From Flavobacteriales bacterium (GTDB lineage: Bacteria > Bacteroidota > Bacteroidia > Flavobacteriales_D > Sanyastnellaceae): a stretch of 38,690 bases of DNA. Positions 7,196 through 38,690 of the stretch are shown one piece after another; the first letter of the stretch is position 1; the number at the start of each line of letters is the position of its first letter. The stretch is taken from positions 1 to 38,690 of the forward strand of contig JAKVAX010000028.1 in the NCBI GenBank assembly GCA_022447625.1. The letters are read 5' to 3'. The notes under the pieces were generated by a model. The model saw only the letters and a program-made list of their open reading frames with translations, was not told where the DNA came from and made no database searches. The position numbers and the translations under genes were made by a program.

Positions 7196-8223
7196 TGTGC
7201 GAGTGCCAATTTTTTACGTTCACGAATAATCAAGGTGACAAATACTGGAGCTCCAATGATAGCTGTAATGATACTGATTGGCAGCTCCTGTGGTAAGACG
7301 ATGGTTCGCGCAAGCGTATCTGCAACCAAATTCAAAAAGCCGCCGAAGATCAAACTTGCTGGAATCAAGTAACGGTGATTGTGACCGATCCATAGTCTCA
7401 TAATGTGCGGTGCAACGAGTCCGATGAAACTCACAACACCACAAAAAGCCACGGTGGCTCCAATGCCGAGTGTAGTTACAAGAATAACTTTCCTTTTCAA
7501 TGATTGTGTATCAACTCCCATTGAATAAGCTTGGTCCTCGCCCAATTGTATCTTATTTAGTTTTCCTGCAATACGCGGATAGTAAATGAATCCAGGCATG
7601 ACGAACAATGCAAGGATGGTGATGTTGGTCCAGGTTATATTCGACATACTACCCATCATCCAAAAGGTAACGTTGCGCAACTCTTGGTCATTCGATGTGA
7701 AAATCATCAGACTGGTCAAAGCTGCAGCCATAAATTGAAGCGCGATACCTGATAGGAGCAATATTGACATATCTGCTCGCCCATTATTCAATGACATCCG
7801 GTAGGCAATGATTGCTGTTATTAACGCACCGATAAAAGCGGCAACGGGAAGGGTATAATAGCCAACCTGCAATCCAAAGAGAGCCAAACTGGTGGCACCC
7901 ATGGAGATTATGAAAACAGCAAATGCCGAAGCGCCAGATGAAATTCCAATGATTGAAGGGTCAGCAAGAGGATTGCGAAATAAACTTTGCAACGCAATCC
8001 CACCTCCAGCTAAAGTTGCTCCTACGACAATGGAACCTAGTATTCTCGGGGAACGTACAGACAAGAGCACGTACTGTTGAATAGAAGCTTGATGGTCAGG
8101 GGTGCTAGAAAAAAGAGAGGCGAGGTCTGACCAATTGATCGAGACTCCGCCAAAGAAGAATGAAGCTATGGTGGTGGCCACCAAGCCTACAAATAGCAAT
8201 ACTATCTGAACATGAGGGCTCAT
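7192..8223 (-). CDS. hmuU: FecCD/BtuC-type haem ABC permease
   Basis: Inner-membrane permease of 343 residues with many hydrophobic helices, typical of the iron-siderophore/haem/B12 (FecCD) family. Seen: the N-terminal membrane segment, SVRSPRILGSIVVGATLAGGGIALQ (residues 53-77, the conserved R-x-PR region), FRNPLADPSIIGISSGA, and late GLVAPHIMRLWIGHNHRYLIP, which couples to the ATPase. It overlaps both neighbours by four bases. As usual for the family, it probably acts as a homodimer. Haem as substrate is inferred from the operon, since vitamin B12 and siderophore permeases look alike. Confidence 0.92.
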   Translation of the reverse strand: MSPHVQIVLLFVGLVATTIASFFFGGVSINWSDLASLFSSTPDHQASIQQYVLLSVRSPRILGSIVVGATLAGGGIALQSLFRNPLADPSIIGISSGASAFAVFIISMGATSLALFGLQVGYYTLPVAAFIGALITAIIAYRMSLNNGRADMSILLLSGIALQFMAAALTSLMIFTSNDQELRNVTFWMMGSMSNITWTNITILALFVMPGFIYYPRIAGKLNKIQLGEDQAYSMGVDTQSLKRKVILVTTLGIGATVAFCGVVSFIGLVAPHIMRLWIGHNHRYLIPASLIFGGFLNLVADTLARTIVLPQELPISIITAIIGAPVFVTLIIRERKKLALAQ

Positions 8224-9074
8224 TCTTTCAGTAATTCATGTAAGCTGTTTAGGTGTTGGCAATATTTGAGACCGAATCCACTAATCGCGTGGGCAGGGAA
8301 TGAAATCACATTTTGATCTTTTCCCGCTTTTGTTTTTTCCAATCCAGGTATTGCCAGCACACCATCAATTCCTCCCATAGCATGGAATCCATGCTCGAAC
8401 ATAATCAAGCATTCTGGGTCATATTCAACAAGTGCCTCCGGTGAAAGCGGCTTGAACCCATCAACTTCTTCAGCTACGTTTATACCGCCAGCTTCAACGA
8501 TCATATGTCCTACTGAGGTATTCCCTCCCCCTACAAGGAGATTTCCACCACCAGCAGCATAGACAAACAAACACTTGCGATCTGTAGCTCCGGGATTCTG
8601 CTCACAGCTAATCGCTGAAAGTAACTGAGGCTTCATCTCGGCATTTCCGAAGTAAGAGCAGATAGAATCAATGGCTGCTTTTGTGTGCTCAATTGACTCC
8701 GGTTTTTGGAACGTAACCACATCCACATTCGCTGATCTAATTTGATTTAGTAGCTCAGGCTTGAGCGCATCCGAACCAAAAACGACTGTAGGCTTAGCGT
8801 TCAGAATGGCTTCAATATTAAAGCTATGTCGGTCTCCAGCAAGTGGAATCATAGTAGCAGCTTCCGGTGTTACGGAAGTAACGTCTCGAAGCACAATGTG
8901 CTCATTCATTCCTAAGGCAAAAAGGATTTCGGTGGACGTTGGATTCAGCGTAACGATTGTATGCTTAATCTCTTCTTCTTGAACGTTCTTAGAATCGTCA
9001 GAAGAAGCAGGCTGCTGATCACACGAAGTGATCAGCAGCGCTGCGAACAAAAGTACAGTAAGAAGTCTGTTCAT
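8220..9074 (-). CDS. hmuT: Haem ABC transporter substrate-binding lipoprotein
   Basis: A 284-residue BtuF/HmuT-type binding protein. Lipobox ITSC gives Cys18, so in this diderm it is probably tethered to a membrane facing the periplasm. The domain begins TIVTLNPTSTEILFALG and contains the usual LAGDRHSFNIEAILNAKPT and FAYAAGGG-like segments of cluster A-II binding proteins. The lipobox codons lie inside a perfect 12-bp hairpin (9011-9039) that could affect early translation. The stop overlaps the permease start (ATGA), and the start follows ten bases after the T9SS HmuY-like gene. Confidence 0.88.
   Translation of the reverse strand: MNRLLTVLLFAALLITSCDQQPASSDDSKNVQEEEIKHTIVTLNPTSTEILFALGMNEHIVLRDVTSVTPEAATMIPLAGDRHSFNIEAILNAKPTVVFGSDALKPELLNQIRSANVDVVTFQKPESIEHTKAAIDSICSYFGNAEMKPQLLSAISCEQNPGATDRKCLFVYAAGGGNLLVGGGNTSVGHMIVEAGGINVAEEVDGFKPLSPEALVEYDPECLIMFEHGFHAMGGIDGVLAIPGLEKTKAGKDQNVISFPAHAISGFGLKYCQHLNSLHELLKE
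9011..9039 (-). repeat. Perfect 12-bp hairpin over the hmuT lipobox codons
   Basis: GCTGCTGATCAC (9011-9022) pairs exactly with GTGATCAGCAGC (9028-9039) around a five-base loop. On the coding strand it spans codons 12-23, encoding the lipobox and the first mature residues. It is a possible mRNA structure near the start of hmuT, where the operon passes from a secreted binding protein to the ABC genes. Confidence 0.75.
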
Positions 9075-9083
9075 GACGCGAGC

Positions 9084-10319
9084 TTACCGTATGATCAATG
9101 GGCGAACGTTTTCGCCGTCAACCGTGGAGATCTTCAAGATGTACGTTCCGGCATTGAGCGAAGCGTTGTTCAAATTAAGAGTCTGTACACCTGCTGATAA
9201 GTTGACATTCGTCGAATGTGCAATCTGTCCTGTTACATTGTAGATCTCTAGCGATGCTTGAGTAGCTTTAGTAGTTTCAATACGAACGTTTAGGTTACCT
9301 GAAACAGTTGGGTTTGGATAAACGACCATGTCCGTTACTCCGTTGATTTCCCCAACAGAAGATCCTGAAATGAGCTCAACGTTGTAAGCGATATCCCCTG
9401 TTCCTGTTCCTCCGAATGAAGTGAAGGTCACCTGGTAAACATCACCAGCTGCATTCTTCACGAAGTATGTGCGGTCTGCAACGATCTCCCATACGAATTC
9501 CATGTTGAGGTTTTTCCAATCGTTACCGACCAATCCAATATTGTCTGTGGTCCAAGTATAGTCTGTGTAAATTGCGTCATCTGGATTTACGCCATCTACA
9601 CGAATCAATTCAACTCCTGAATTGGCGAGGGTGCCTGTGGTTGCCCCAGGGCCAAAAGCGGTCATTCCGAAATAACGTGTAAATACCAAATCCCAAGAAC
9701 CTGAAGCAGGCTCTCTGTCAATGAGTTCGTTGGTGACTACATTGAAGTAAGCGAAGTTCCTGTCAGCATAGTCTCCCATTCCGAATGTGGTTTCTACTTC
9801 ATTGCTTCCATCAAGATCGGCAGTAGTGAATGTCCATGCTCCAGCGTCGAGTTTATCGATACGGAATTTCTTGAACGAATCTCCTGCTTGGATGATGTAC
9901 AAGGAGTCACCAACAACATCGTGAAGTGGATCTCCGGTATAGTAGCCCCAGCTGAAATCAGAAGGGTCACCGCTGTATGATTGGTTCAATGCTCCGTTAT
10001 CCCAGCTGTCTGTTAGATTGTGTAGCGCAGGCCAAGAAATAAAACCAGTGGTGTCAAGAGCGTCCCATGCGGAGATGTCTCCGTTATTGTAGTTCTTAAT
10101 CGTTGTTCCATGTCCGTCATTCACGCGGATGGCAACAGAGAATGGATTTCTGACATCGAAGGCAAGGTGCCAATCAGTGGCATCAACTGTAGAAACTTCT
10201 CCTGTTTCCATCGAAACGTAAACATCTGAAACGTATGAAGTACTCATGGAAATATTGACTTCCTGAGCGTTCAAGCTGATGGAAGAAATGAGTACAAGAA
10301 CAAGTAAAGTTCGGCGCAT
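9084..10319 (-). CDS. T9SS-exported HmuY-like protein
   Basis: First gene of the haem operon, 411 residues. The signal peptide ends near SISLNAQ (residues 13-19). The middle (about 100-310) is HmuY-like and clearly related to the lipoprotein encoded last in the operon; compare DLDGSNEVETTF and SWDLVFTRY with the corresponding segments there. The C-terminal 75 residues are a T9SS type A sorting domain: VVYPNPTVSGNL, then LEIYNVTGQ, ending GTYILKISTVDG and IIR. It should therefore be secreted or fixed at the cell surface, where it could capture haem as a haemophore. That role is inferred from family and position. Confidence 0.85.
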   Translation of the reverse strand: MRRTLLVLVLISSISLNAQEVNISMSTSYVSDVYVSMETGEVSTVDATDWHLAFDVRNPFSVAIRVNDGHGTTIKNYNNGDISAWDALDTTGFISWPALHNLTDSWDNGALNQSYSGDPSDFSWGYYTGDPLHDVVGDSLYIIQAGDSFKKFRIDKLDAGAWTFTTADLDGSNEVETTFGMGDYADRNFAYFNVVTNELIDREPASGSWDLVFTRYFGMTAFGPGATTGTLANSGVELIRVDGVNPDDAIYTDYTWTTDNIGLVGNDWKNLNMEFVWEIVADRTYFVKNAAGDVYQVTFTSFGGTGTGDIAYNVELISGSSVGEINGVTDMVVYPNPTVSGNLNVRIETTKATQASLEIYNVTGQIAHSTNVNLSAGVQTLNLNNASLNAGTYILKISTVDGENVRPLIIR

Positions 10320-28118: not shown

Positions 28119-29276
28119 TTACTGGATGAGGAGTTTATGGCTGAAATAAGTATAGCCATTAGAGATAGACAGAACGTAAACCCCTGGAGTTTCAATAAAA
28201 TCTAAGGCCGCTATTTGTGGTTGGCTAATGGTTTTTTCCTGGATAATGTTGCCAGTTAGATCCATTAATTGCAAGGTCACTTGTTCATGGATACTTGACA
28301 AATCAACGAAAACATTGCCCATTGATGGGTTTGGGAAAATGTGGGTCGCTGGGAGTTCGATAGTTTCTGTGTTTGAGGATGTGTTAGTCATCGCTAATTT
28401 AATGCCTACAGGTCGATGGTCTGATATGTAGTAGTCATAATCATACCATCCATCTGACATAAACTCATCGATTTTTAATGTGACTACTTCGGAGCCTGAG
28501 CTAGACAAATCATCAAATAATTCATTCGTAACCAAGATGTGGTCAAGGTGTGAAGGCCATCCATAGAAAGACCAATTCTCGGAGGTGCCTGATGCAATGT
28601 CGTAATCTGCAAAACTGTAATTGGAAGGATCATTTAAGAACATTTGGAACACATTGTGTTCATTATCGTCGATGAGTAGGTCATTTAAGTCACCGATCAC
28701 CAGAACCTTTGCTAATGGGTGGTATTCGTCAATGTATGTTTTGAGTAATTGGCTAGCTTCAAAACGGCGGTTTTCTTCGTCGCCAGAATCGTCCATGTCT
28801 AATAGGCCATCTCCACAGCATTTGAAATGATTATTGATGACAATGACGTCATTACCTTCAAACGAAAACTCAATCACTAACGGGGATCTAGGGAAGACAT
28901 TCCAGTAAGGAGATGTGTCATAAATTTTATAGATGCTTTGGACATCTATCGCGCTTGTTTTGTAGACGTATGCGAGTCCTCCGAACCATTCATTGTCCAT
29001 AAAAAGTTCGTAGCCTGGTAGATCGTCAATCATTTGACGACAGGCAATCGTATCATCAATTTCTTGTATCCCGATGAGATCGGCATCTAGGCTTTCAATG
29101 ATCTTTCCAACGGAATCAACGGTTAACATTCCGTTTTTCGGAAACCACTCTATATTCCAGGTGATTACTTCAAGCGTGGAGTCAGTGCCAAATGATATTT
29201 CGCCTAAGTCCTGGCCTAGAATGATCAAAGGCGACATATACATGCAAATTATCAATGTGATGAATCGATGTGCCAT
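28119..29276 (-). CDS. Secreted endonuclease/exonuclease/phosphatase-fold protein, T9SS
   Basis: A 385-residue exported enzyme. The signal peptide ends near SPLIILGQ (about residue 21). The EEP domain shows EVITWNIEWFP, LIGIQEIDDTI (catalytic Glu), VLVIGDLNDLLIDD (Asp/Asn pair) and ISDHRPVGIKL (final Asp-His), all in order. A T9SS sorting domain fills about the last 75 residues (HIFPNPSMGNVFVDL, LQLMDLTGNIIQ, GVYVLSIS, KLLIQ). The substrate may be extracellular DNA or a phosphodiester; sequence does not decide. It stands alone. Confidence 0.9.
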   Translation of the reverse strand: MAHRFITLIICMYMSPLIILGQDLGEISFGTDSTLEVITWNIEWFPKNGMLTVDSVGKIIESLDADLIGIQEIDDTIACRQMIDDLPGYELFMDNEWFGGLAYVYKTSAIDVQSIYKIYDTSPYWNVFPRSPLVIEFSFEGNDVIVINNHFKCCGDGLLDMDDSGDEENRRFEASQLLKTYIDEYHPLAKVLVIGDLNDLLIDDNEHNVFQMFLNDPSNYSFADYDIASGTSENWSFYGWPSHLDHILVTNELFDDLSSSGSEVVTLKIDEFMSDGWYDYDYYISDHRPVGIKLAMTNTSSNTETIELPATHIFPNPSMGNVFVDLSSIHEQVTLQLMDLTGNIIQEKTISQPQIAALDFIETPGVYVLSISNGYTYFSHKLLIQ

Positions 29277-29401
29277 AAGTGAAAGACAGAATGTAATCGT
29301 GATACTCTGCCAAGTTAAAATATTGAGAACAATTATAAGGAAGTCAATCTAACTGAACTTTATTCAAACTCTATCCTAGAGATGGGGAGCATCTCATAAG
29401 C

Positions 29402-29845
29402 TCAATATTCAATAAGGTACTCGTATTGCTTTCTCAGCTTTAACGCTCTTTCGCGAACCATATACAATCCAAATTCTGCGCGTTCATCGAAATTTCTTTC
29501 ATTCATTTCCAAATGGTAAAACACGTTGATAAAGTCACACTCGTTTTCGAAATGTTCGACCCAAGTATCTTGACTTTTCTTCAGTATTTCGGCAGTTTCC
29601 GTCGAAAGGGTGTCTGCCAGTAGAGTGTAGTAATGATTCATTTCAATCTCCCATTCAACCCAAGCGCGGTTGATACACTCAACTGTTCCCACCATTGTGT
29701 AATTGGAATCTACTTCTAGGCATTGTTTGTAGCTTAGGTCAATTGGGTGAATATCATCTTGAGAGAAACAGTCGGTTGCAACGACGCAGAAGAGTAATAC
29801 TAGCAACGGTATGAGGCGTATATTATAAATCATAGTTCTTCGCAT
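29402..29845 (-). CDS. LprI-like (DUF1311) secreted protein
   Basis: A 147-residue protein with a leader ending near ATDCFSQ. The mature part has the short alpha-helical DUF1311/LprI pattern: YKQCLEVDSNYTMVGTVECINRAWVEWEIEMNHYY, then WVEHFENECDF and ERALKLRKQYEYL. The spaced cysteines and TVECINRAW-like core are the signature. Some relatives inhibit lysozyme, but many have no tested role. The MRRT start (29845) gives a better charged leader than the internal MIYN (29833). It lies 45 bases from the next upstream gene, which has the same orientation. Confidence 0.7.
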   Translation of the reverse strand: MRRTMIYNIRLIPLLVLLFCVVATDCFSQDDIHPIDLSYKQCLEVDSNYTMVGTVECINRAWVEWEIEMNHYYTLLADTLSTETAEILKKSQDTWVEHFENECDFINVFYHLEMNERNFDERAEFGLYMVRERALKLRKQYEYLIEY

Positions 29846-29890
29846 TAAGCGTTTAGATGTTGGTGTTGAAAAGGTGCTTCAAGGGTAAGT

Positions 29891-30406
29891 TTACTCTTGG
29901 TTCAATAAATACGTGAAGTCTCGATAAAGAGAATGATAATCTTCAACGGAGAGCGCAATAGTATCTTTTTTTACGGCTTCTAGCCGGATGAGATCTTCCT
30001 TCATCAGCTCTTCCGAAGTCGTCTTTAGGGTATGTGTCGTTTTCTGACCTGTAAGTTCATCTGAAAAATAGTACTCAGTGCATGTCAAGCTGTAATCATC
30101 AGGGGCCATTCCATCCCATGAGAGTTCGAAACGATATAAGTAAATCAGTTTGTTATCAACGGAATAGTAATCACTGGTACTGCTGCCGTAACTACCGCTA
30201 TCATTTTCTTTCAAAATCCGCATTTGCGTTTTTGTACTGTCTCGGTAGAACGTAATGATTCCTTCTGCATCTCCGTAGGAGTATTCCAATTCTTTGAAGG
30301 CGATGAGGGATTGTTCTATGGCCAAGACTTGGGCCTTACGTTGAGAGATTAAATCAGCTACCTGGTAGTTAAGTGAGATGAATAAAATGAATACTGCCAG
30401 TTTCAT
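29891..30406 (-). CDS. Hypothetical secreted or periplasmic protein
   Basis: A 171-residue protein with no recognised family. The N-terminal hydrophobic stretch MKLAVFILFISLNYQVA looks like a signal peptide, followed by a helical segment RKAQVLAIEQSLIAFKELEYSYGDAEG and then beta-rich sequence containing EGIITFYRDSTKTQMRILKEN. It probably shares a transcript with the LprI-like gene downstream. Both encode small exported proteins, but no functional link can be shown. Confidence 0.6.
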   Translation of the reverse strand: MKLAVFILFISLNYQVADLISQRKAQVLAIEQSLIAFKELEYSYGDAEGIITFYRDSTKTQMRILKENDSGSYGSSTSDYYSVDNKLIYLYRFELSWDGMAPDDYSLTCTEYYFSDELTGQKTTHTLKTTSEELMKEDLIRLEAVKKDTIALSVEDYHSLYRDFTYLLNQE

Positions 30407-30943
30407 ATGGTGTCGCTATTCGGGGAATGAGTTGATCTTCAAGTATTGAAATCAATAGCACAAAATTTACGCCAAACTAGACAGTGAAATGTCCCACAAC
30501 TATAATTTGCAGAGCATTCAGTACCCTCTACGGATAGGTTCTCGAACTCTTTCCGTGAAAATCTAGGTGAGCTGTGGGATCTGCGTAAGGTGCTAGCTAC
30601 AGAGTGTTTGATGGATGAACTAGGTTGTATGATTAGCAGGTCCAAAACTGAGACTGATTCAGATATTCAACTGGGGAGATGAACGAATGCAATGAGGGTG
30701 GTGGCGAAGATCAAGGTGTTCACTTTCAGGTACATACAATCCCTCTGTAACTTCTGGGAATTTTGATTTTTCTAGACGGCCAATTCTCACAGACCACTTC
30801 GAATCCAATAGATCACAATTATATAGTCAGAGAACTTATTCCAATCTGAGCTGTCGATTTTTTTGCCGTAGGCTGCAACCCTATAGGAAAATATTGTGTC
30901 TAGAGACAGAGCAGAACTGATTTAATTTAACCTTTCATAACCA
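30407..30943. other. 537-bp intergenic region, no gene seen
   Basis: Divergent intergenic space between the hypothetical secreted protein (- strand) and the small T9SS protein (+ strand). The short frames present lack leaders, family features and consistent coding bias. I see no convincing promoter, tRNA or hairpin here. Confidence 0.5.
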
Positions 30944-31507
30944 ATGAACTCCTTAAAACTACTTTTCTGTATTTGTTCATTACTAGTGTCCAATTTGTTG
31001 CTTTCTCAAGACTGTTCTTTCAGTATTAATTATGAGCAACAGTCTTGTTCAGAGTACCATCTGTTCGCAACAGGTGAAGAAATCCTTGACTGGTATGTAG
31101 ACAATGTCTTTCAAGTGACAAGCACTGAATATGATTTTAATCCAAGCACCGCAGGCACCTATGAAATCTGCGCTGTGAACGAGGGCTGTCCGCCAGAAAC
31201 GAATGTTTGCGAAACGTTTGTAATCACTGAGGATTGTTTAGATAGTTTCACACTTGTGAGTGAGAATGAAATAAGTGACTTATTCAGTGTTTATCCAAAC
31301 CCATCAAAAGGAGCAGTTAATATTGCAGGCAATGTTGAAATCTTAGATAAGATCCACATTCGGGATGCCCTGGGTAGCCTGGTCTACTTATCAAATGATC
31401 CTTCAAATGAAGCTATCTCCCTTGCTGATTTACCTTCCGGAACATACTTTATATACTTTTCATCAGCTGAAGGAGTCTTTGTGGAAAAGTTGCTGCTAAA
31501 CAAATAA
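30944..31507 (+). CDS. Small secreted protein with T9SS sorting domain
   Basis: A 187-residue exported protein. The signal peptide (MNSLKLLFCICSLLVSNLLLSQ) is followed by a short cysteine-containing beta domain resembling a PKD/Ig-like unit (residues about 23-95, with EILDWYVDN and GTYEICAVNEGCPPET). A T9SS sorting domain runs from VYPNPSKGAVNIAG through IHIRDALGSLVYL to SGTYFIYFSSAEG and KLLLNK. It is very short for a T9SS cargo, with little beyond one small domain and the tag. The early coding region contains a perfect 10-bp inverted repeat (31007-31016 / 31038-31047). Confidence 0.8.
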   Translation: MNSLKLLFCICSLLVSNLLLSQDCSFSINYEQQSCSEYHLFATGEEILDWYVDNVFQVTSTEYDFNPSTAGTYEICAVNEGCPPETNVCETFVITEDCLDSFTLVSENEISDLFSVYPNPSKGAVNIAGNVEILDKIHIRDALGSLVYLSNDPSNEAISLADLPSGTYFIYFSSAEGVFVEKLLLNK

Positions 31508-31737
31508 CGGGCATTTAGAAATCGGTGGGAGTGCATAATGTACTCTTGGCAAAAAGGCTACAATGACGAAAATGAGTTCATCGCTCGTTCTCAGTCGCTG
31601 CGCATCATAGCCACCCCGCTATCCGTAACTACGCCTCCAAATTTCGATCAAGCAGACGCTACCAAATTTACTCTTCGAAGACAAAGCGAAGCATTTGTGA
31701 TCGCTCTCGTCGAAGAAAGGAAAAGAGTGGGAAACGA

Positions 31738-31800
31738 CGTGAGAGCGAAGAAAATCAGAACAAGAAACTTCGCTCTCACGATGTTTCTCGTTCTGATTTG
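31738..31800. repeat. Interleaved inverted repeats (A-B-A'-B')
   Basis: CGTGAGAGCGAAG (31738-31750) pairs perfectly with CTTCGCTCTCACG (31768-31780). The loop segment AAAATCAGAACAAGAAAC (31751-31768) pairs at 16 of 18 positions with GTTTCTCGTTCTGATTTG (31783-31800). If transcribed, it could form either of two hairpins or a pseudoknot. A further TCGCTCTCGTCG (31701-31712) is complementary to part of arm A. Confidence 0.7.
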
Positions 31801-31916
31801 TGCCTGGGGCGGGGTTACTTCCTGCGGTCGCGCTTCTCCGCTCCATTTATGATACTCATTTCGCTCCGAGGTGAAACCACATTCACTCCCAATTCATCGA
31901 AACACCCACAATAGAA

Positions 31917-31950
31917 AAAAGGCCTCCGCTCAAATGAGCAAAGGCCTTTT
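31917..31950. terminator. Bidirectional terminator-like hairpin
   Basis: AAAAGGCCT (31917-31925) and AGGCCTTTT (31942-31950) form the outer stem, and GCTC (31928-31931) with GAGC (31936-31939) the inner stem around an AAAT loop. A six-base A run on the left gives a T tract on the minus strand; the + strand ends in TTTT. It separates the T9SS gene side from the HTH operon side. Confidence 0.75.
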
Positions 31951-32020
31951 CAGTACCCATGGACTTCCAGTTATCGAACTCTCTTGTAGAGGGATTTCGT
32001 AAGATATACCAATTAAAGGG

Positions 32021-32125
32021 GATTCTAGAAGAATCTGGCTATGACAACAGTCTATACCACAATTTCACAAGTCCTTGATTGGACTTGTATTCTTCTACAC
32101 TATAGTACATGAACTATACTGAAGA
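32021..32125. promoter_or_regulatory. Three consecutive dyads upstream of the HTH gene
   Basis: Three inverted repeats in 105 bases: GATTCT-aga-AGAATC (32021-32035), ACAAGTCC-ttgatt-GGACTTGT (32067-32088), and TCTTC/TATAGT with ACTATA/GAAGA (32091-32095 and 32101-32106 with 32113-32118 and 32121-32125). The middle one is a perfect 22-base dyad of the size expected for a dimeric HTH regulator. They are candidate operators for autoregulation by the product of 32230-32445. Confidence 0.5.
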
Positions 32126-32202
32126 AGAGGGCTTTGCAAAAACAAACCATCCATCTACTGTAAAGACGTATCCAGAATATCTAAATATCCATTCGGATTT
32201 CG

Positions 32203-32210
32203 TACATTTA
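32203..32210 (+). promoter_or_regulatory. Possible -7 element of the HTH-GHKL operon
   Basis: TACATTTA has one mismatch to TAnnTTTG and lies 19 bases before the ATG at 32230. There is no TTG at the expected distance, so the call is weak. Confidence 0.3.
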
Positions 32211-32229
32211 CCCCATTCAAAATTCCAAT

Positions 32230-32445
32230 ATGACAGAACTGGGCAAATACCTTAATAAGAAATCGGTAAACAAAGCGGAAATCTCGAGGCGTACAGGAAT
32301 AAGTCCATCTAGGTTAAGTGAGTTGTCATTGAATAGTTCAACTAAACTTCGTGCAGATGAAATTTATTTGATTGCCCTGGCAATTGATATTTCCCCAGGT
32401 CAAGTCTTAGAGGAAGTCTGTGGTCATTTAACTATAAACTCTTAG
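32230..32445 (+). CDS. Small Xre-like HTH regulator
   Basis: A 71-residue DNA-binding protein. The Cro/C1-type helix-turn-helix is seen in VNKAEISRRTGISPSRLSELS, followed by the usual LRADEIYLIALAIDISPGQVLEEV helices. It has no added sensor or peptidase domain. It starts an AT-rich operon three bases before the GHKL gene and sits downstream of three dyads, so it probably controls the transcription of the whole unit, as such regulators commonly do in restriction-modification and defence loci. Confidence 0.85.
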   Translation: MTELGKYLNKKSVNKAEISRRTGISPSRLSELSLNSSTKLRADEIYLIALAIDISPGQVLEEVCGHLTINS

Positions 32446-32448
32446 CTA

Positions 32449-34779
32449 ATGGAAGAAAACAATGACATCGAGAAGCTGAAAGCAAAGTTAAACGAAGCAC
32501 TTCAAGGAACAGAAGTTGACAATGATTTAATCATACAGTTATCTCAACAAATTGCGAGTCTTGACAAATCTAAAGTTAGATTTTCAATTGATGCTGGGGT
32601 AATTGATAGACTTGGGAAAGAACTAGTAGCAAGGCAAGAAACGGCGGTTTCTGAACTTGTTAAAAACGCCTATGATGCAGATGCTCTGGAAGTATCTTTA
32701 ACCTTCGAAAACTCAGACTCGGTTGGTGGAGATTTGACAATTTCAGACGATGGTGATGGAATGACGAGAGAGGAATTAGTTAATGGATTTATGAGGATTT
32801 CGTCAACTACAAAAATCCATAATCCTGTCTCTAGAAAATATAAGCGTCAACGAGCTGGAAAGAAAGGTATAGGACGATTTGCTGTTCAGAGGTTAGGTGC
32901 AAAATTGACAATAATAACTCAAACATCTAATTCTGAGAATGCTCTAAAACTATCAATAGACTGGGATGAGTATAAAAAAGACTTGAATTTAATGTCCATC
33001 TCTAATTCTTTAGAAGTTGTTCCGAAAGAAAAAGAGAAGGGAACGACGTTAATCATAGAAAACCTTAGAGATAAATGGTCAGTTGCGTCTATAAAGAGGA
33101 TATACAGATACGTGTCGGATATTATTCAACCTTTCCCCCTTTCGGATAATCACAAAGTATCCAACGCAACAAGGATTGAAGAAACTGGCGATACAGGATT
33201 TAAATCGGTCTTTTACAAAAAAACGAAGGAAAATATCGAATTAATTGCTGACAACGACAGTGAAATATTTGATTTTGCCATTGCTAAAATTGAAGGTTGG
33301 CTAGATAATAACGGAATAGGTCTATACTCTATAAACAGTGAAAAACTGGACATTAATGAAATTAATGAGATAGGAAATGACGAGGACGACAATTCTATTC
33401 CTTTTGAAAAAATTAAGAATGTAAATTTCATTGCATATTACTTCATTCATGAAAAATCTCTTATCCCAACTCTGCATTCAACTAGAATCAAGAAATTGGC
33501 CAATACAAAAGGAGGTATTAGACTATACAGAAATGGGTTTAGAGTTCTTCCTTATGGAGAACCTGCCGATGACTGGTTAAAACTTGATAAATCGCAACGT
33601 CAGCGCTCAATTCTACCGCAACATGGTAACAACAACTTTTTTGGTTTTGTTGAAATCAATGACCAAGAATCTATTTTCGAAGAAACCTCCAGTAGAGAAG
33701 GATTAACCGAAAACGAAGCTTTTATTGAATTACAAAACCTTGTCTATAGAATGTTAATGTCTGCGGTTGTGAAAGTCGCAAACACAAGAAAGATTAAGGT
33801 TCGATCAGGGCAAGAGAAAGACGAAAAAGGAGACTGGGTTCCAGTTGATGTAAGGATTTCGAATATTGCAAAAACCATTGAGGAACTCGAAAAAGAGCTG
33901 GAAGACGGCAATCCAGAATCTTCAAGGAGAAGAAGAAGGAGAGTCAAAAGAATAAAAGATGATATAGACGAACTCGCTGAACTTCAGAAGTCAGAACAAG
34001 CTAAATACATAAAAGAGCGCTCCATGCTCAGAGTTCTTAGCAGTGTAGGGCTCTCAATTGCTCAGTTCATACATGAGATCAAATACTATTTAGGAAATAT
34101 GAATAGTGATGTTCAGTTCCTTGTAGATAATCTTGAAAAGGACTCCGAAACCCTACTAAGAAGTAGTATTCTAAAAGATAATTTTTCGTCGTTTAAAACT
34201 TATACAGCCTATTTTGACGATGTTGTTTCCAAAAATGTAATTCGAGAACTTATTCCTATTAACATGGAGGAGACAATTACTGAATTTGCTAGTTCAATAA
34301 GCTCTGAAACAGAAAGAACTGGTGTTGAAATAATCACAGGAGAGTTCCCTGCCTATCGCATATTTACTAAGCCAATGCACCCATCTGAATGGTCTTCAAT
34401 CCTTTTCAATTTTTACACTAATTCGAAAAAGGCAATAGATAGAGCAAAAGTAAACGAAGGTAAAGTGCTCATTGAGGTTGGTGAGGCTGACAACTTGGTT
34501 TATGTAGAGTTTTCAGACAATGGTGATGGAATCCCATCGGAAATAGAAGAGAAAATTTTCGATGAATTTTTTACTACGACTACACAAAAAAGCTTTGATG
34601 AGCTTGATTCGAGTTCAGAAATACTAGGAACAGGGCTGGGGCTGAAAATTGTTAAAGACATCGTTAAAAGTTATAGAGGAAGTATTTCTGTGGTATCCCC
34701 AAAAGAAGAATATTCAACTACTATTAGAGTTGAGATACCTATGGCAACTGAAAAAGACTATGAAAAATATGACCTATAA
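32449..34779 (+). CDS. Double-GHKL ATPase with histidine-kinase-like core
   Basis: A 776-residue cytoplasmic protein with two ATP-binding Bergerat folds. The first (about 43-200) is Hsp90/MutL/MORC-like: VSELVKNAYDADA (Asn73), ISDDGDGMT (99-105) and GKKGIGRFAVQRLG (from 137). A middle region follows, then an arginine-rich coiled coil (about 470-525). Next is a DHp-like helix pair with a candidate phospho-accepting His542 in FIHEIKYYL. The second fold (about 640-770) is histidine-kinase-like: ILFNFYTNSKKAID (Asn654, Asn658), SDNGDGIP (689-696), FDEFFTTT and GTGLGLKIV (727-735). There are no membrane segments. It overlaps the receiver gene, a likely phospho-transfer partner. Phosphorylation and ATPase roles are inferred from motifs. 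The gene is AT-rich and probably transferred. Confidence 0.88.
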   Translation: MEENNDIEKLKAKLNEALQGTEVDNDLIIQLSQQIASLDKSKVRFSIDAGVIDRLGKELVARQETAVSELVKNAYDADALEVSLTFENSDSVGGDLTISDDGDGMTREELVNGFMRISSTTKIHNPVSRKYKRQRAGKKGIGRFAVQRLGAKLTIITQTSNSENALKLSIDWDEYKKDLNLMSISNSLEVVPKEKEKGTTLIIENLRDKWSVASIKRIYRYVSDIIQPFPLSDNHKVSNATRIEETGDTGFKSVFYKKTKENIELIADNDSEIFDFAIAKIEGWLDNNGIGLYSINSEKLDINEINEIGNDEDDNSIPFEKIKNVNFIAYYFIHEKSLIPTLHSTRIKKLANTKGGIRLYRNGFRVLPYGEPADDWLKLDKSQRQRSILPQHGNNNFFGFVEINDQESIFEETSSREGLTENEAFIELQNLVYRMLMSAVVKVANTRKIKVRSGQEKDEKGDWVPVDVRISNIAKTIEELEKELEDGNPESSRRRRRRVKRIKDDIDELAELQKSEQAKYIKERSMLRVLSSVGLSIAQFIHEIKYYLGNMNSDVQFLVDNLEKDSETLLRSSILKDNFSSFKTYTAYFDDVVSKNVIRELIPINMEETITEFASSISSETERTGVEIITGEFPAYRIFTKPMHPSEWSSILFNFYTNSKKAIDRAKVNEGKVLIEVGEADNLVYVEFSDNGDGIPSEIEEKIFDEFFTTTTQKSFDELDSSSEILGTGLGLKIVKDIVKSYRGSISVVSPKEEYSTTIRVEIPMATEKDYEKYDL

Positions 34780-35833
34780 AATTCTATACATAGAAGATTT
34801 AAATCCTGACTCGATAATGCAAGAGCTTTCCAAAGAACCATCGTTTGATGTAGTGCATTGGAAACCTGATACCATTGAAGACATCGACACCAAGATTGCA
34901 GATGTGAATGCTATTGTCATGGATTTCAGATTAACTGAAGGTGAAACCAAGTTGGACGGTTCTAGCTATGCGCAAGCTATTAGAACAATTGGCTCGGACA
35001 TCCATAAAAACTTACCTATAGTTCTATTCTCCGATGAGGATAAGATTACGGACTATTATAAAGATTTCACTAGTCAGGACTTGTTCGATTTTTCCATACC
35101 AAAGGACTCATTCAGGGCAAATCCAGAAAAATATAACACACGCATTCTTTCCCTATTAAATGCCTATCGCAAAATAGAAGATGACAACAGAGATTTAGCC
35201 AAAATTCTCGGAGTTAATGACGTTACGGAAATTGACTATCGAATTGATTTCACGTTAATGAAAGAAACTTATGCAGAAGACGTTTACCCTTATTCTAGAT
35301 TCATTTTACAGAACATGATCCGTTCTATAGGATTATTGATAGGAGAAGATATTTTATCAGCACGTCTTGGTATTTCAAAAGATTCTGGAAATTGGGAAGA
35401 TTTGAAAGCACACCTCGAGGAGTTTAAATACACAGGAATTTTTTCGGATTCATACAACAGATGGTGGGCAAAAGACATCTCCAATTGGTTTAACTCTAAA
35501 AGCGAAAATAACTCATCCCTAAGAAGACTTGCTGCTTCTGAGAGATGTGAAGCTATCAAAAAAATAACTGGATTGTCTGAGTTAGATCCTTTGACTCAAA
35601 TTGATGAAAGAGGTTATAAAGCCAAAAGCTCCAAATTCTGGACAATTTGTAAGGCAACGCACAGAGCAATTGACTACTCGGACGGATTTGAATTATACCT
35701 AAGGGATTTAAAACCTTGGCAAGAGCCAGAGTTCATTTCGTTTTTGGGAATCTCTAATGGTTCCTTAATGTCTTCAGTGAAACCAGCTGACAAGGCTAGA
35801 ATTAGAAAAATTGAGCAAAGTCTAAGGTCATGA
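34769..35833 (+). CDS. Receiver-domain protein with unknown C-terminal half
   Basis: About 354 residues. The N-terminal 120 residues form a response-regulator receiver: acidic Glu9-Asp10 (YIED), phospho-acceptor Asp52 in IVMDFRL, Ser88 in VLFSDED and Lys112 in SIPKDSF, all at expected places. The C-terminal 200 residues have no recognised DNA-binding or enzymatic domain; they are mostly helical and include RWWAKDISNWFN and FWTICKATHRAIDYSDGFELYLRDLKPWQEPEF. I chose ATG 34769 (MTYKILYIED), overlapping the GHKL gene by 11 bases; ATG 34760 is also possible. Its partner is probably the adjacent histidine-kinase-like protein. The missing DNA-binding output suggests it acts on another protein of the operon. 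Confidence 0.82.
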   Translation: MTYKILYIEDLNPDSIMQELSKEPSFDVVHWKPDTIEDIDTKIADVNAIVMDFRLTEGETKLDGSSYAQAIRTIGSDIHKNLPIVLFSDEDKITDYYKDFTSQDLFDFSIPKDSFRANPEKYNTRILSLLNAYRKIEDDNRDLAKILGVNDVTEIDYRIDFTLMKETYAEDVYPYSRFILQNMIRSIGLLIGEDILSARLGISKDSGNWEDLKAHLEEFKYTGIFSDSYNRWWAKDISNWFNSKSENNSSLRRLAASERCEAIKKITGLSELDPLTQIDERGYKAKSSKFWTICKATHRAIDYSDGFELYLRDLKPWQEPEFISFLGISNGSLMSSVKPADKARIRKIEQSLRS

Positions 35834-36585
35834 GTTGGGAAAAAGAAGATTTTTTATTCGACATAAAGACCCTAAATAGGCTCATAACTAGACATGAAAT
35901 AAAAGTTATTGGTTCGGAACTAAGTAATCTCGAATCGAACTTAGAATGCAACTATGAAGAGGACTCATGGTCTCATGTTGTAAAGAATATTGAATTGGTA
36001 TTGGAGGAATCTATTTCTGGTACGATACCAGTTGATATTGAAGAGTTTCATTTCTTCTTAACAGTTCATTTTATAATGGATGAAGCTAAAGATTGTACAA
36101 CTCATGATCCATTTTACAATGGTAAAGTAAACTTCAAAGGCGAAGAAGGAATTGACGCTTATTCCCTACAAATTGAAATTGAAGGACATTCACTGGAAGG
36201 AGAATATACTAATACATGGCACCTAGATAGACATATTACAGGAGGTGGTGTCGCAAAGGTGGTTCATCCATTCTATCATTTTCAAAATGGGGGGCATAAA
36301 ATAGAAGAAAAGCCTGTAGATACCGGAAAAATTGTTTTCACTGGGGCTCCCAGAATACCTCATCCTCCAATGGATATTATTTTAGGATTTCACTTCATTG
36401 TGAACAATTTCTTTAATAAAAATTCATCCCAGAATATATCTAACCTTTTAGGAGATACAGAGTACGAAGAGTTAATTACTAGGGCTCAAAATAGAATGTG
36501 GAAACCTTATTACAATGCATTTAATGGTGGAAATCATAATGATTATACAATAGACAATATTACACCGCTTTACACGGTTCATTGA
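35830..36585 (+). CDS. Unrecognised histidine-rich protein
   Basis: A 251-residue protein with no family I can name. The N-terminal 70 residues are helical and acidic. The middle has beta strands with a histidine-rich core: NTWHLDRHITGGG, then HPFYHFQNGGHKIEE, then GAPRIPHPPMDIILGFHFIVNNFF. The clustered histidines with aspartate and glutamate could bind metal or form an active site, but no known catalytic motif is evident. The PRIPHPPMD block looks strongly conserved in style and would be a good search seed. It overlaps the receiver gene by four bases (ATGA) and the methylase gene by one (TGATG), so it is an integral part of the module. Confidence 0.7.
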   Translation: MSWEKEDFLFDIKTLNRLITRHEIKVIGSELSNLESNLECNYEEDSWSHVVKNIELVLEESISGTIPVDIEEFHFFLTVHFIMDEAKDCTTHDPFYNGKVNFKGEEGIDAYSLQIEIEGHSLEGEYTNTWHLDRHITGGGVAKVVHPFYHFQNGGHKIEEKPVDTGKIVFTGAPRIPHPPMDIILGFHFIVNNFFNKNSSQNISNLLGDTEYEELITRAQNRMWKPYYNAFNGGNHNDYTIDNITPLYTVH

Positions 36586-38432
36586 TGGATAGGAACGTCT
36601 TTAAATACATAAAAAATCATATCTCAACGAAGCCTTTTGACGTTGACCGTCTCATCGTGTCTGCTTTTTTACGGAGTAATGGAACTTCCGTTAAGAATAA
36701 CAAATTCATACTCAACTATATTATATCCAAAGAGAATGACGAAGAACATTCGATTCTTGAAGATTTTATTGGACTCTTTGATAAGCCAATAAGCTTCGAG
36801 AAATTAATTGAGTTATTTGAGTTTGTAATATCTCCAAAAGAAAAAATTGTCACAGGTGCAGTATACACTCCTGAATATGTGAGAAACTACATCGTAAACA
36901 GCTGTTTAGACAAGGTAGATATAAATAATTTACCCAAAATATGCGATCCTGCTTGTGGATGTGCAGGTTTCCTATTTTCGGCTGCTTTAAAGCTTAAAGA
37001 AGACACTCAACTTTCCTTTGCAGAAATCTATGAGAAGACACTATTTGGCCTAGATATTGAAAATTACTCAATTACTCGCTCTAAGCTGTTACTATCGTTA
37101 TTAGCAATAAATCACGGAGAGGATATAGAAAGCTTTAACTTCAACTTACATCAAGGTAATGCCCTAAACTTTAACTGGTCGGAGAAAATAAGGCACTTTG
37201 AGGGATTCACTCACATTTTAGGTAATCCGCCTTATGTTTGTTCCAGAAACATCGATGAGGGATCGAAGAAACTCTTGTCGAATTGGCAAGTTTGCTCAAC
37301 TGGTCACCCTGACCTCTATATTCCATTTTTTGAAATTGGAATGAGTCTTTTAAAGAAGAATGGTATTCTTGGCTACATTACGATGAATACATTTTTCAAA
37401 AGTGTCAATGGTAGAGCGTTAAGAGAGTATTTTAACAAGAGTAAATTCAATTTCAAAATTCTTGATTTTGGTTCAAACCAAGTTTTCGGATCAAAGTCCA
37501 CATACACATGTATCTGCTTGATAAGGAACACTTATTCATCATCAATTTCTTATAAGGAATTATCTAGGAGTGAAATTACACTCGATAAGAAAGTTATCTT
37601 GAATAAAATCTCTTACGATTCATTGAGCCATGAGAAAGGTTGGAATCTTAAAGAGCACGAAATACTTAACAAAATTGAAAATAGTGGGAAGCCATTCGGG
37701 ACTTTATTTAAATCTAGAAACGGAATAGCAACACTGAAGAATAAGCTCTACATCTTTGCACCGATCAAAGAAGATGAGAAATACTATTATCTGAAAAATG
37801 GGAAAACTTATGCCATAGAAAAGGAAGTTTGTAAGGACATAATAAACCCGAATAAACTAATTAAAAGCACCTCTATTGAAAACATTAAGATGAAGGTGAT
37901 TTTCCCGTATGAAACAGAAAAGGATAACGTCAAGCTTATTAAAGAAAAGAACTTCACTGAAAAATATCCCAAGGCGTATGCTTATCTGAAAGATAAAAGG
38001 AAGATTCTAGCTACTCGAGACAAGGGTAAAGGAAACTATGAAAATTGGTACGCATTCGGAAGAACTCAATGCTTGGAAAATCTAAAGTACAAGTTGTTTT
38101 TTCCTCACATTACTCCAAAAATTCCAAATTTCATTTTAAACTCAGACGACAATCTACTTTTTCATAATGGTATTGCATTAATTGGAGAGAGTGAAAATGA
38201 ACTTCAATTTGCAAAAAAGATAATGAGCTCGAGGTTATTCTGGTTTTACATTACAAACTCAAGTCGTCATTATGGTTCTCAATACTATTCATTAAGTAAA
38301 ACATACTTCAAAAACTTTGGAGTATTTGACTTCTCACAGAAAGAGAGAGAATATATTATAAACGAAGAAAATTGGGATAAACTGAATCAATTTATCGAAA
38401 GTAAATATCAAATTGAGCTAAATGAACTTTAG
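36585..38432 (+). CDS. Eco57I/TaqI-class N6-adenine DNA methyltransferase
   Basis: A 615-residue gamma-type adenine methyltransferase. Motif X-like TGAVYTPEYVRNYIV (90-104), motif I DPACGCAGF (121-129, S-adenosylmethionine binding), an acidic FGLDIEN (154-160) and catalytic motif IV NPPY (214-217) are intact. The C-terminal half (about 340-600) fits the TaqI-like target recognition domain, with SRNGIATLKNKLYIFAP and a late LLFHNGIALIG. The N-terminal 90 residues show no PD-(D/E)xK or other nuclease motif, unlike type IIG enzymes of this class, which are usually much longer. The start is ATG 36585, overlapping the previous stop. It is the last gene of the AT-rich operon. It could mark self DNA for a partner, or directly report DNA state to the GHKL/receiver proteins. 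Confidence 0.88.
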   Translation: MDRNVFKYIKNHISTKPFDVDRLIVSAFLRSNGTSVKNNKFILNYIISKENDEEHSILEDFIGLFDKPISFEKLIELFEFVISPKEKIVTGAVYTPEYVRNYIVNSCLDKVDINNLPKICDPACGCAGFLFSAALKLKEDTQLSFAEIYEKTLFGLDIENYSITRSKLLLSLLAINHGEDIESFNFNLHQGNALNFNWSEKIRHFEGFTHILGNPPYVCSRNIDEGSKKLLSNWQVCSTGHPDLYIPFFEIGMSLLKKNGILGYITMNTFFKSVNGRALREYFNKSKFNFKILDFGSNQVFGSKSTYTCICLIRNTYSSSISYKELSRSEITLDKKVILNKISYDSLSHEKGWNLKEHEILNKIENSGKPFGTLFKSRNGIATLKNKLYIFAPIKEDEKYYYLKNGKTYAIEKEVCKDIINPNKLIKSTSIENIKMKVIFPYETEKDNVKLIKEKNFTEKYPKAYAYLKDKRKILATRDKGKGNYENWYAFGRTQCLENLKYKLFFPHITPKIPNFILNSDDNLLFHNGIALIGESENELQFAKKIMSSRLFWFYITNSSRHYGSQYYSLSKTYFKNFGVFDFSQKEREYIINEENWDKLNQFIESKYQIELNEL

Positions 38433-38690
38433 CTATTATTTAACTTTAGAAAAATGACAAATAAGATATTTAATAAGCGTAGTAATTTATAAGACAAAAG
38501 AAATAAAAGAAGACATATCAAGATAAAGTAGCGTAGCCGTATTCTAGAATCAGAAATCGCCAAATTTTAGAACAACCAAGAATACAGTATACAAGCTACG
38601 TCCTCATGGGCGTGGTCTGTTCTGTTTGGTTGTGGGTGTTTGGCGATACCCTGATTCTCTCGGTTCAGTTCCACGCCTTCTTTTTTACAT
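38433..38690. other. Intergenic region after the methyltransferase
   Basis: No reading frame is supported. The first 95 bases are very AT-rich. The rest holds the compound inverted repeat described at 38528-38677 and an abrupt change to more balanced base composition, consistent with a structural element or an element boundary at the window edge. Confidence 0.5.
38528..38677. repeat. Compound interleaved inverted repeats
   Basis: Three pairs interlock. Pair 1: GTAGC (38528-38532) and GTATTC (38539-38544) with GAATAC (38580-38585) and GCTAC (38595-38599). Pair 2: AGAATCAG (38546-38553), TCGCCAAA (38557-38564) and ACAACCAA (38572-38579) with TTGGTTGT (38626-38633), TTTGGCGA (38639-38646) and CTGATTCT (38651-38658), in mirrored order. 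Pair 3: GGCGTGG (38609-38615) with CCACGCC (38671-38677). It is consistent with a structured RNA or a recombination site; the class is unknown. Confidence 0.7.

Follow-up and report, generated by a model that had tools for sequence, protein, structure and literature searches.

A classical restriction system pairs one modification with one effector, and in Detocs a kinase-receiver logic has been proposed for phage defence, with no known DNA modification partner and with a sensor and effector different from those considered here. GHKL proteins have been described in silico in operons of restriction-modification (R-M) systems (PMC2292703, excerpts), phage defence by VcSduA, a GHKL-nuclease protein, has been tested experimentally (PMC12137116, excerpts), and an in silico study of 2021 described a double-GHKL kinase paired with a receiver protein beside C5 DNA methylases (PMC8011034, excerpts). 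DUF2290 is a protein of a tested anti-T7 system that also contains a helicase (Rst) (PMC9122126, excerpts). Here, a five-gene block at positions 32,230–38,432 was analysed in a contig of a Flavobacteriales bacterium (JAKVAX010000028.1, assembly GCA_022447625.1), the window being this whole contig of 38,690 nucleotides. The block encodes a small helix-turn-helix (HTH) protein, a double-GHKL histidine kinase (HK), a receiver protein (RR), a third protein (D) that profile comparison places as a remote relative of DUF2290, and a DNA methyltransferase (MTase). HK, RR, D and a DNA modification gene form a real, conserved and accessory unit, and its gene content and conserved residues suggest, with a probability of about 0.6, an accessory, modification-coupled restriction-type defence operon.

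The closest described relative is alike in that a kinase with HATPase_c_3, H-box and HATPase_c adjoins a receiver protein and DNA methylases (HEF_HK/Response_reg_2, PF19191 and PF19192). In contrast to that pair, neither of the two Pfam models gives a match to the window's HK or RR at E ≤ 1 (HMMER filters drop weak matches), the partner is an N6-adenine MTase or SspBCD instead of a C5-MTase, and the third gene is DUF2290-like. New with respect to the pair of 2021 are the DUF2290-like gene, the swap between N6-methylation and phosphorothioation, and the archaeal members. In the open-licence literature searched, neither the HK-RR-D set nor its DUF2290 link nor its pairing with SspBCD was found described (subscription papers or preprints could hold such an account), and the terms receiver, GHKL, DUF2290 and phosphorelay are absent from the main text of a phosphorothioation survey (PMC10853773). 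The legend of a DefensePredictor figure of predicted systems defines HATPase and REC (PMC13092281, excerpts), and that figure may show a related candidate. A preliminary description of this DNA knew no named system with this gene order; RR, D and the HTH protein had no PADLOC match at E ≤ 1, but the general kind had been described in 2021 (PMC8011034, excerpts).

Relatives were collected by a genome scan using the N-terminal part of HK alone as query, against a collection of 84,980 genomes (by the tool's description), and the best 80 of 550 confirmed stretches were analysed, which is no census. Seed alignments of HK, RR and D were built from the window, G324 (a genome of the same class) and a Hymenobacter plasmid; RR and D were recognised by profiles iterated from these three sequences, and open reading frames (ORFs) were called with a simple longest-ORF script, so that ORF starts in relatives are rough. 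Where 2.5 kb or more of sequence follows HK (64 loci), RR and D were both present in 54, the 16 of 80 loci with less having been left out (five of these show RR, and two D). The ten loci without the pair were L050, which has a short HK frame, L067, where RR is followed by a gene of 235 amino acids (aa) not recognised as D and without a Pfam match, and eight distant loci (L079, L080, L081, L082, L088, L089, L092 and L093). The 59 complete loci (window, G324, plasmid, and 56 of the 80) occur in Bacteroidota, Pseudomonadota, Campylobacterota, Bacillota, Chloroflexota, Acidobacteriota, Verrucomicrobiota, Planctomycetota and archaea, some of them in metagenome bins, with binning as deposited. The conserved core comprises the three genes HK, RR and D, with the HTH gene outside it.

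A DNA modification gene accompanies the core in 56 of the 59 complete loci: an N6-adenine MTase in 45 and SspBCD in 11, with neither in the remaining three. The co-occurrence of homologues that the preliminary description had proposed as a check was thus observed. The 45 N6-MTases are encoded downstream on the same strand (32), upstream (11), or downstream on the opposite strand (2); they include L083, with the MTase 4.3 kb away and the HK frame split, and L086, with the MTase 0.8 kb away, and a second MTase cluster is present at L074, L077 and L078. The N6 type was assigned by Pfam for the window, for 10 of the 11 upstream MTases (not L085) and for L074, and by clustering for the others; the ten scanned upstream MTases all match Eco57I and N6_Mtase, and also the M.Eco57I C-terminal model, for which two of them stay below the cut-off. 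Ssp and Pbe names were given by PADLOC models in G324, and elsewhere by clustering with the G324 genes. In the flanks covered, all matches to the modification profiles lay within 5.5 kb of the core, and in 52 of the 59 loci the modification gene lay within 200 bp of it.

Distances among HKs correlated with those among MTases (Mantel r 0.72 over 42 loci, a value reached by none of 1000 permutations). A quick-search HK tree covers 58 rows, without L083, and has SH-aLRT as its sole branch support; L086, L064 and L058 sit on long branches, and 13 rows are unusual in composition. One group of 13 rows, with an SH-aLRT of 100 and lying amid methylase-linked rows, contains all 11 kinases linked to Ssp, together with two of the three loci that have neither partner, and partner labels change three times over the tree, compared with 13.2 times after shuffling (0 of 200 shuffles as low). 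By this tree, the Ssp-linked kinases represent a change of modification chemistry during which the core was retained; with the root placed at the midpoint, no direction is assigned to this swap. The alternative that modification enzyme and core are independent modules sharing defence islands, for which the clustering of defence genes in general and the opposite-strand SspBCD of L048, L052 and L062 (0.1–1.1 kb off) could be cited, is already disfavoured and very improbable given the spacing within 200 bp, the correlated divergence of HK and MTase, and the confinement of the partner swap to one HK-tree group. Linkage and swap together give the best indication of a core that operates alongside a DNA mark yet is not bound to the chemistry of that mark. 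The phospho-relay tied to DNA methylation, as first proposed, stands in so far as a relay-like pair is linked to a modification gene across phyla, but the partner is exchangeable (N6-MTase or SspBCD).

In G324 (L012/L013), HK-RR-D lies between SspB-SspC-SspD and SspA-PbeA-PbeC-like genes, and nearby relaxase-like and TraG-like genes, as read from the ORFs, suggest a conjugative element. DUF262 (GmrSD_N), the domain of SspE-type proteins (PMC10952713, excerpts), was matched in nine of the 11 Ssp genomes at 25 places, and none of the 20 places inspected was inside an Ssp locus as covered here (about 7 kb downstream and 2.5–10 kb upstream of the core); it had no match in genomes G324 and G436, the latter of only 1.7 Mb. 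SspABCD phosphorothioation is similar in that SspBCD is near the core in 11 relatives, whereas the window has a methyltransferase, and no gene for SspB, SspC or SspD was found in a search with locus profiles confined to the window, the rest of the genome being unsearched. At four Ssp-linked loci (L047, L048, L052 and L062), a protein of about 800 aa (796–810 aa) forms a cluster of its own, the L048 member of which (7445–9835) has a sub-threshold HATPase_c_3 match and no PADLOC match.

The five genes all lie on the forward strand, at the right end of the contig, and the right flank is just 258 bases because the contig ends there. They had been reported as closely spaced and as AT-richer than the DNA to the left, and both statements were confirmed: the HTH and HK genes are separated by 3 bases, HK and RR overlap by 20, RR and D by 4, and D and MTase by 4 (reduced to 1 with ATG 36,585 as the MTase start), and the GC fraction is 0.350 in 32,230–38,432 versus 0.444 leftward, where the lowest of 105 equal-sized windows has 0.416. 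The supposed location between repeat-rich blocks did not hold up. Tandem Repeats Finder located four arrays in the whole window and none beyond 15.9 kb, no second copy of either flank (31,530–32,229 and 38,433–38,690) was found in the genome, and a repeat search over 31,000–38,690 returned 27 direct families (20 listed) and 22 inverted pairs, nearly all of them short or imperfect two-copy matches of the kind that often arise by chance; clear local hairpins are present at 31,724–31,799 and 31,917–31,950.

Whether the locus is core in relatives had been named as a further check, and HK was missing (no match at E ≤ 1e-60) from 39 of 39 other related genomes; two of the 39 belong to the same genus, and 32 have a completeness of 90% or more with contamination of 5% or less. 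D was present in 2 of 395 genomes of the phylum, counting the window's own, by a single-sequence search, and close relatives are therefore rare. Profiles of D, HK and RR gave 23, 31 and 180 pattern matches in viral contigs, none of which was confirmed; phages gave no match to D, and E. coli genomes no match at the DNA level. Among plasmids, one record contained a relative, that of Hymenobacter (L011, NZ_CP014303.1).

HK (776 aa, 32,449–34,779) contains an N-terminal HATPase_c_3 domain (GHKL ATPase, Pfam E = 1.9e-23), an H-box with His542, and a C-terminal HATPase_c domain (7.4e-25). Both ATP sites are near-invariant across loci, with E69 and N73 conserved in 57 of 58 sequences and N654 and N658 likewise in 57 of 58, and the H-box is conserved at H542 (58/58) and E543 (56/58). 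A Glu such as E69 supports ATP hydrolysis in GHKL domains of MutL/Hsp90 type, and the C-terminal residue set is that of histidine kinases. Of the GHKL plus S5 module that marks the MORC/paraMORC proteins of R-M systems, the alignment covers the GHKL motifs, which are conserved. An NCBIfam model of the BbrUII/HgiDII restriction enzymes matches HK residues 44–216 (2.3e-25, 89 bits, cut-off 550) over positions 2–177 of 659; the N-terminal GHKL part is thus alike, while in HK, unlike in those enzymes, a histidine-kinase core follows. Pfam recognised no ligand-binding domain in the window protein. The MTase (616 aa, 36,582–38,432) is of Eco57I type (Pfam Eco57I 1.4e-27, N6_Mtase 4.7e-12; PADLOC MTase_II, 1.5e-107), with NPPY at residues 215–218 and a DPACGCAG motif read in its translation. 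PADLOC matches of HK and MTase were mainly to general restriction-enzyme and methylase models (among 25 of the 40 MTase matches listed). The double-GHKL ATPase and the adenine DNA methyltransferase of the preliminary description were thus both recovered.

The gene at 34,760–35,833, read from the letters as a receiver, encodes RR (357 aa); its start was taken as ATG 34,760 and not as TTG 34,649 of the ORF list, and residues are numbered from that ATG (conservation alignment numbering +37). No receiver model of Pfam matched the window RR, and over 58 RR members such matches were weak and few (iREC 7, Response_reg 4), but its AlphaFold2 model (predicted local distance difference test (pLDDT) 94.5) has a REC fold at approximately residues 5–137, with Z up to 13.2 and a root-mean-square deviation (rmsd) of about 2–3.6 for single-domain matches. 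D13, D55, W236 and C297 are conserved in 60 of 60 sequences and K115 in 57 of 60, and an inactive receiver, as the name iREC would imply, is disfavoured because Asp and Lys are conserved. Residues 150–357 form a confidently modelled C-terminal domain of no recognised family, with the invariant Trp236 and Cys297, which is possibly an output domain.

With a receiver that has retained its Asp and Lys, and an HTH gene opening the window operon, the locus could instead be a regulatory two-component system, in which HK would sense the state of the cell and the modification genes would be under transcriptional control by RR, without any restriction; for the related pair, control of R-M systems was speculated by the authors of 2021 (PMC8011034, excerpts). 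The HTH gene (32,230–32,445, 71 aa; HTH_26 of Cro/C1 type, Pfam 1.7e-8) was rejected as a conserved controller gene, its type being found in 4 of 58 upstream regions, the window counted and HTH genes of other families uncounted; it is likely a local regulator outside the conserved core. The five-gene module first proposed is consequently upheld for HK, RR, D and the modification gene, which co-occur, but not for the HTH gene, which is incidental. No DNA-binding domain was recognised with confidence by Pfam in the C-terminal part of RR, where single members gave weak matches, and control of transcription would leave unexplained both a conserved D with DUF2290 kinship and the association of one core with two unrelated modification systems. 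A purely regulatory role is for these reasons considered unlikely.

D (251 aa, 35,830–36,585) had been called an unrecognised protein, which is correct for curated families (no match for the window D in Pfam, NCBIfam or PADLOC at E ≤ 1) but not for profile comparison, by which it is a remote DUF2290 relative. Alignment of the D and DUF2290 profiles (hhalign) gave a probability of 91.7, E = 7.7e-7 and a score of 50.2 over an aligned stretch of 68 columns, not the full length. Unrelated pairings gave probabilities of 0.2 and 0.1, the reversed profile scored 22.7, and the real score exceeded 100 of 100 column shuffles, which reached at most 27.5. The DUF2290 models of Pfam (PF10053; best E 0.038) and PADLOC (best 7.3e-4) were each matched by 2 of 55 D members, the window D being unmatched by both. 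H131 and D133 are conserved in 57 of 59 sequences, H150 in 59 of 59, R175 in 58 of 59 and H146 in at least 90%. Asp133, His146, His150 and Arg175 pair with DUF2290 Asp137, His150, His154 and Arg164, invariant in the eight proteins used, and His131 with an invariant Arg of DUF2290, so these His, Asp and Arg residues constitute a candidate active site. In contrast to the helicase-DUF2290 (Rst) system (PMC9122126, excerpts), to whose DUF2290 component D is remotely related, no helicase was found by Pfam among nine window proteins (28.1–38.4 kb); in 6 of 6 plasmid records, DUF2290 comes after an ATP-binding domain-containing protein. D was also considered as an E2-like protein from an HPxYH motif, a candidate that was dropped, with no E2 among the 50 matches listed for each structure search (Foldseek, VIA).

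A tentative mechanism, possible though short of an even chance, is restriction licensed by a His-Asp phosphorelay with an interchangeable self-mark: the core would read the absence of N6-methyladenine or phosphorothioate via the modification complex and not via the chemistry of the mark, and would fire a DNA effector of DUF2290 type. In the restriction-type reading as a whole, which is favoured, the MTase, or SspBCD in relatives, would mark host DNA, and the Hsp90/MutL-like N-terminal ATPase of HK could serve as a clamp engaging DNA or the modification complex, a proposal made because this part resembles BbrUII/HgiDII enzymes and GHKL proteins are known in R-M operons. Upon meeting DNA without the mark, the C-terminal kinase would autophosphorylate His542, the phosphate would be passed to Asp55 of RR, and phosphorylated RR would, via its own C-terminal domain, switch on D as the likely effector on DNA. 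The defence-type reading also draws on pAgo, MmeI-type and AbiE-type neighbours, on the accessory distribution of the locus and on the kinship of D to a protein of a tested anti-T7 system, and anti-phage activity is its putative outcome.

Several observations weigh against a restriction-type operon. The locus shares a DNA methyltransferase with Type II R-M systems, but no nuclease domain was recognised with confidence in HK, RR or D by Pfam and member scans. The AlphaFold2 model of D (pLDDT 86.7) has no convincing solved match (best Foldseek E 0.36; best VIA Z 4.4, to CapZ, with an rmsd of 5.1 over 119 residues), and structure matches were not used for its function. Alternatively, a promoter could be the target of the RR C-terminal domain. 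HK-RR-D need not be the effector in Ssp loci, because other restriction genes are present there (PbeA and PbeC-like in G324). Finally, three of the 59 complete loci (L055, L066 and L060) have neither modification gene in view, L060 with 602 bp to the contig end. In the last two, both inside the Ssp group of the HK tree, the slot before HK is occupied by a DpdB/DndB-like gene (L066, 8641–9879) and an HNH nuclease gene (L060, 8874–9917), and L055 carries genes that are DruA-like and weakly SspF-like. Weak single-member nuclease matches (D to REase_II at 0.006 and to HEAT_CxxC_PDDEXK at 0.0063; RR to DpnII-MboI at 0.14) were taken as chance.

The modification partner linked in 56 of 59 loci could also be a guarded or protective partner and not a self mark, with the relay detecting a phage-borne signal (for example modification loss or an inhibitor) and D acting as a restrained toxin in abortive infection. 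Receiver-triggered effectors in Detocs and the AbiE-type genes assigned by clustering just upstream of HK in seven loci would fit this account; no toxin domain was recognised with confidence in D by Pfam or PADLOC, HK has an N-terminal domain resembling that of restriction enzymes and no recognised ligand-binding domain, and abortive infection is judged improbable.

With one signalling core accompanying two chemically unrelated DNA marks, comparison of an N6 operon with an Ssp operon would probe a mark-independent recognition of 'unmarked' DNA. If modification-coupled restriction applies, two-component signalling would be linked to self/non-self discrimination of DNA in bacteria and archaea. 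DUF2290, whose role is unassigned in the excerpts of PMC9122126 and in related passages, gains a second context and candidate active-site residues, and the third component together with the partner swap makes the function testable.

In the same scan, genes of a C5-MTase cluster (L079 member scanned) were found at seven distant loci, beside HKs without recognised RR or D. The receiver-like protein of L079 matches PF19192 at 2.1e-5, just under cut-off, and that of L081 has no Pfam match at 0.01; PF19192 is not among the 25 of 30 families listed for the 58 RR members, and the window RR aligned with three Response_reg_2 proteins (hhalign) at a probability of 26.6, over part of the receiver. By these matches, the distant C5-methylase loci may be nearer to the HEF_HK/Response_reg_2 pair. 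A third gene of HhH-GPD DNA glycosylase type follows the receiver-like gene at L079, L081, L091 and L092 (cluster 11; L081:13347–14009 scanned), and a HerA-type helicase gene lies upstream of the more distant double-GHKL HK of L079.

On the Hymenobacter plasmid, the HK-RR-D-MTase operon stands beside a gene for a class II prokaryotic Argonaute (pAgo) and one for an MmeI-type enzyme on the opposite strand. Just upstream of HK, L016, L017, L033, L034, L035, L050 and L075 carry AbiEii-type genes whose partners are DUF6088 or of AbiEi type (assigned by clustering, with the L016 and L034 members scanned). In the window itself, the region left of the operon (28,119–31,507) encodes an LprI-type protein and two others that carry Por_Secre_tail sorting domains (Pfam); these genes point to a Bacteroidota-like host and are unrelated to the operon.

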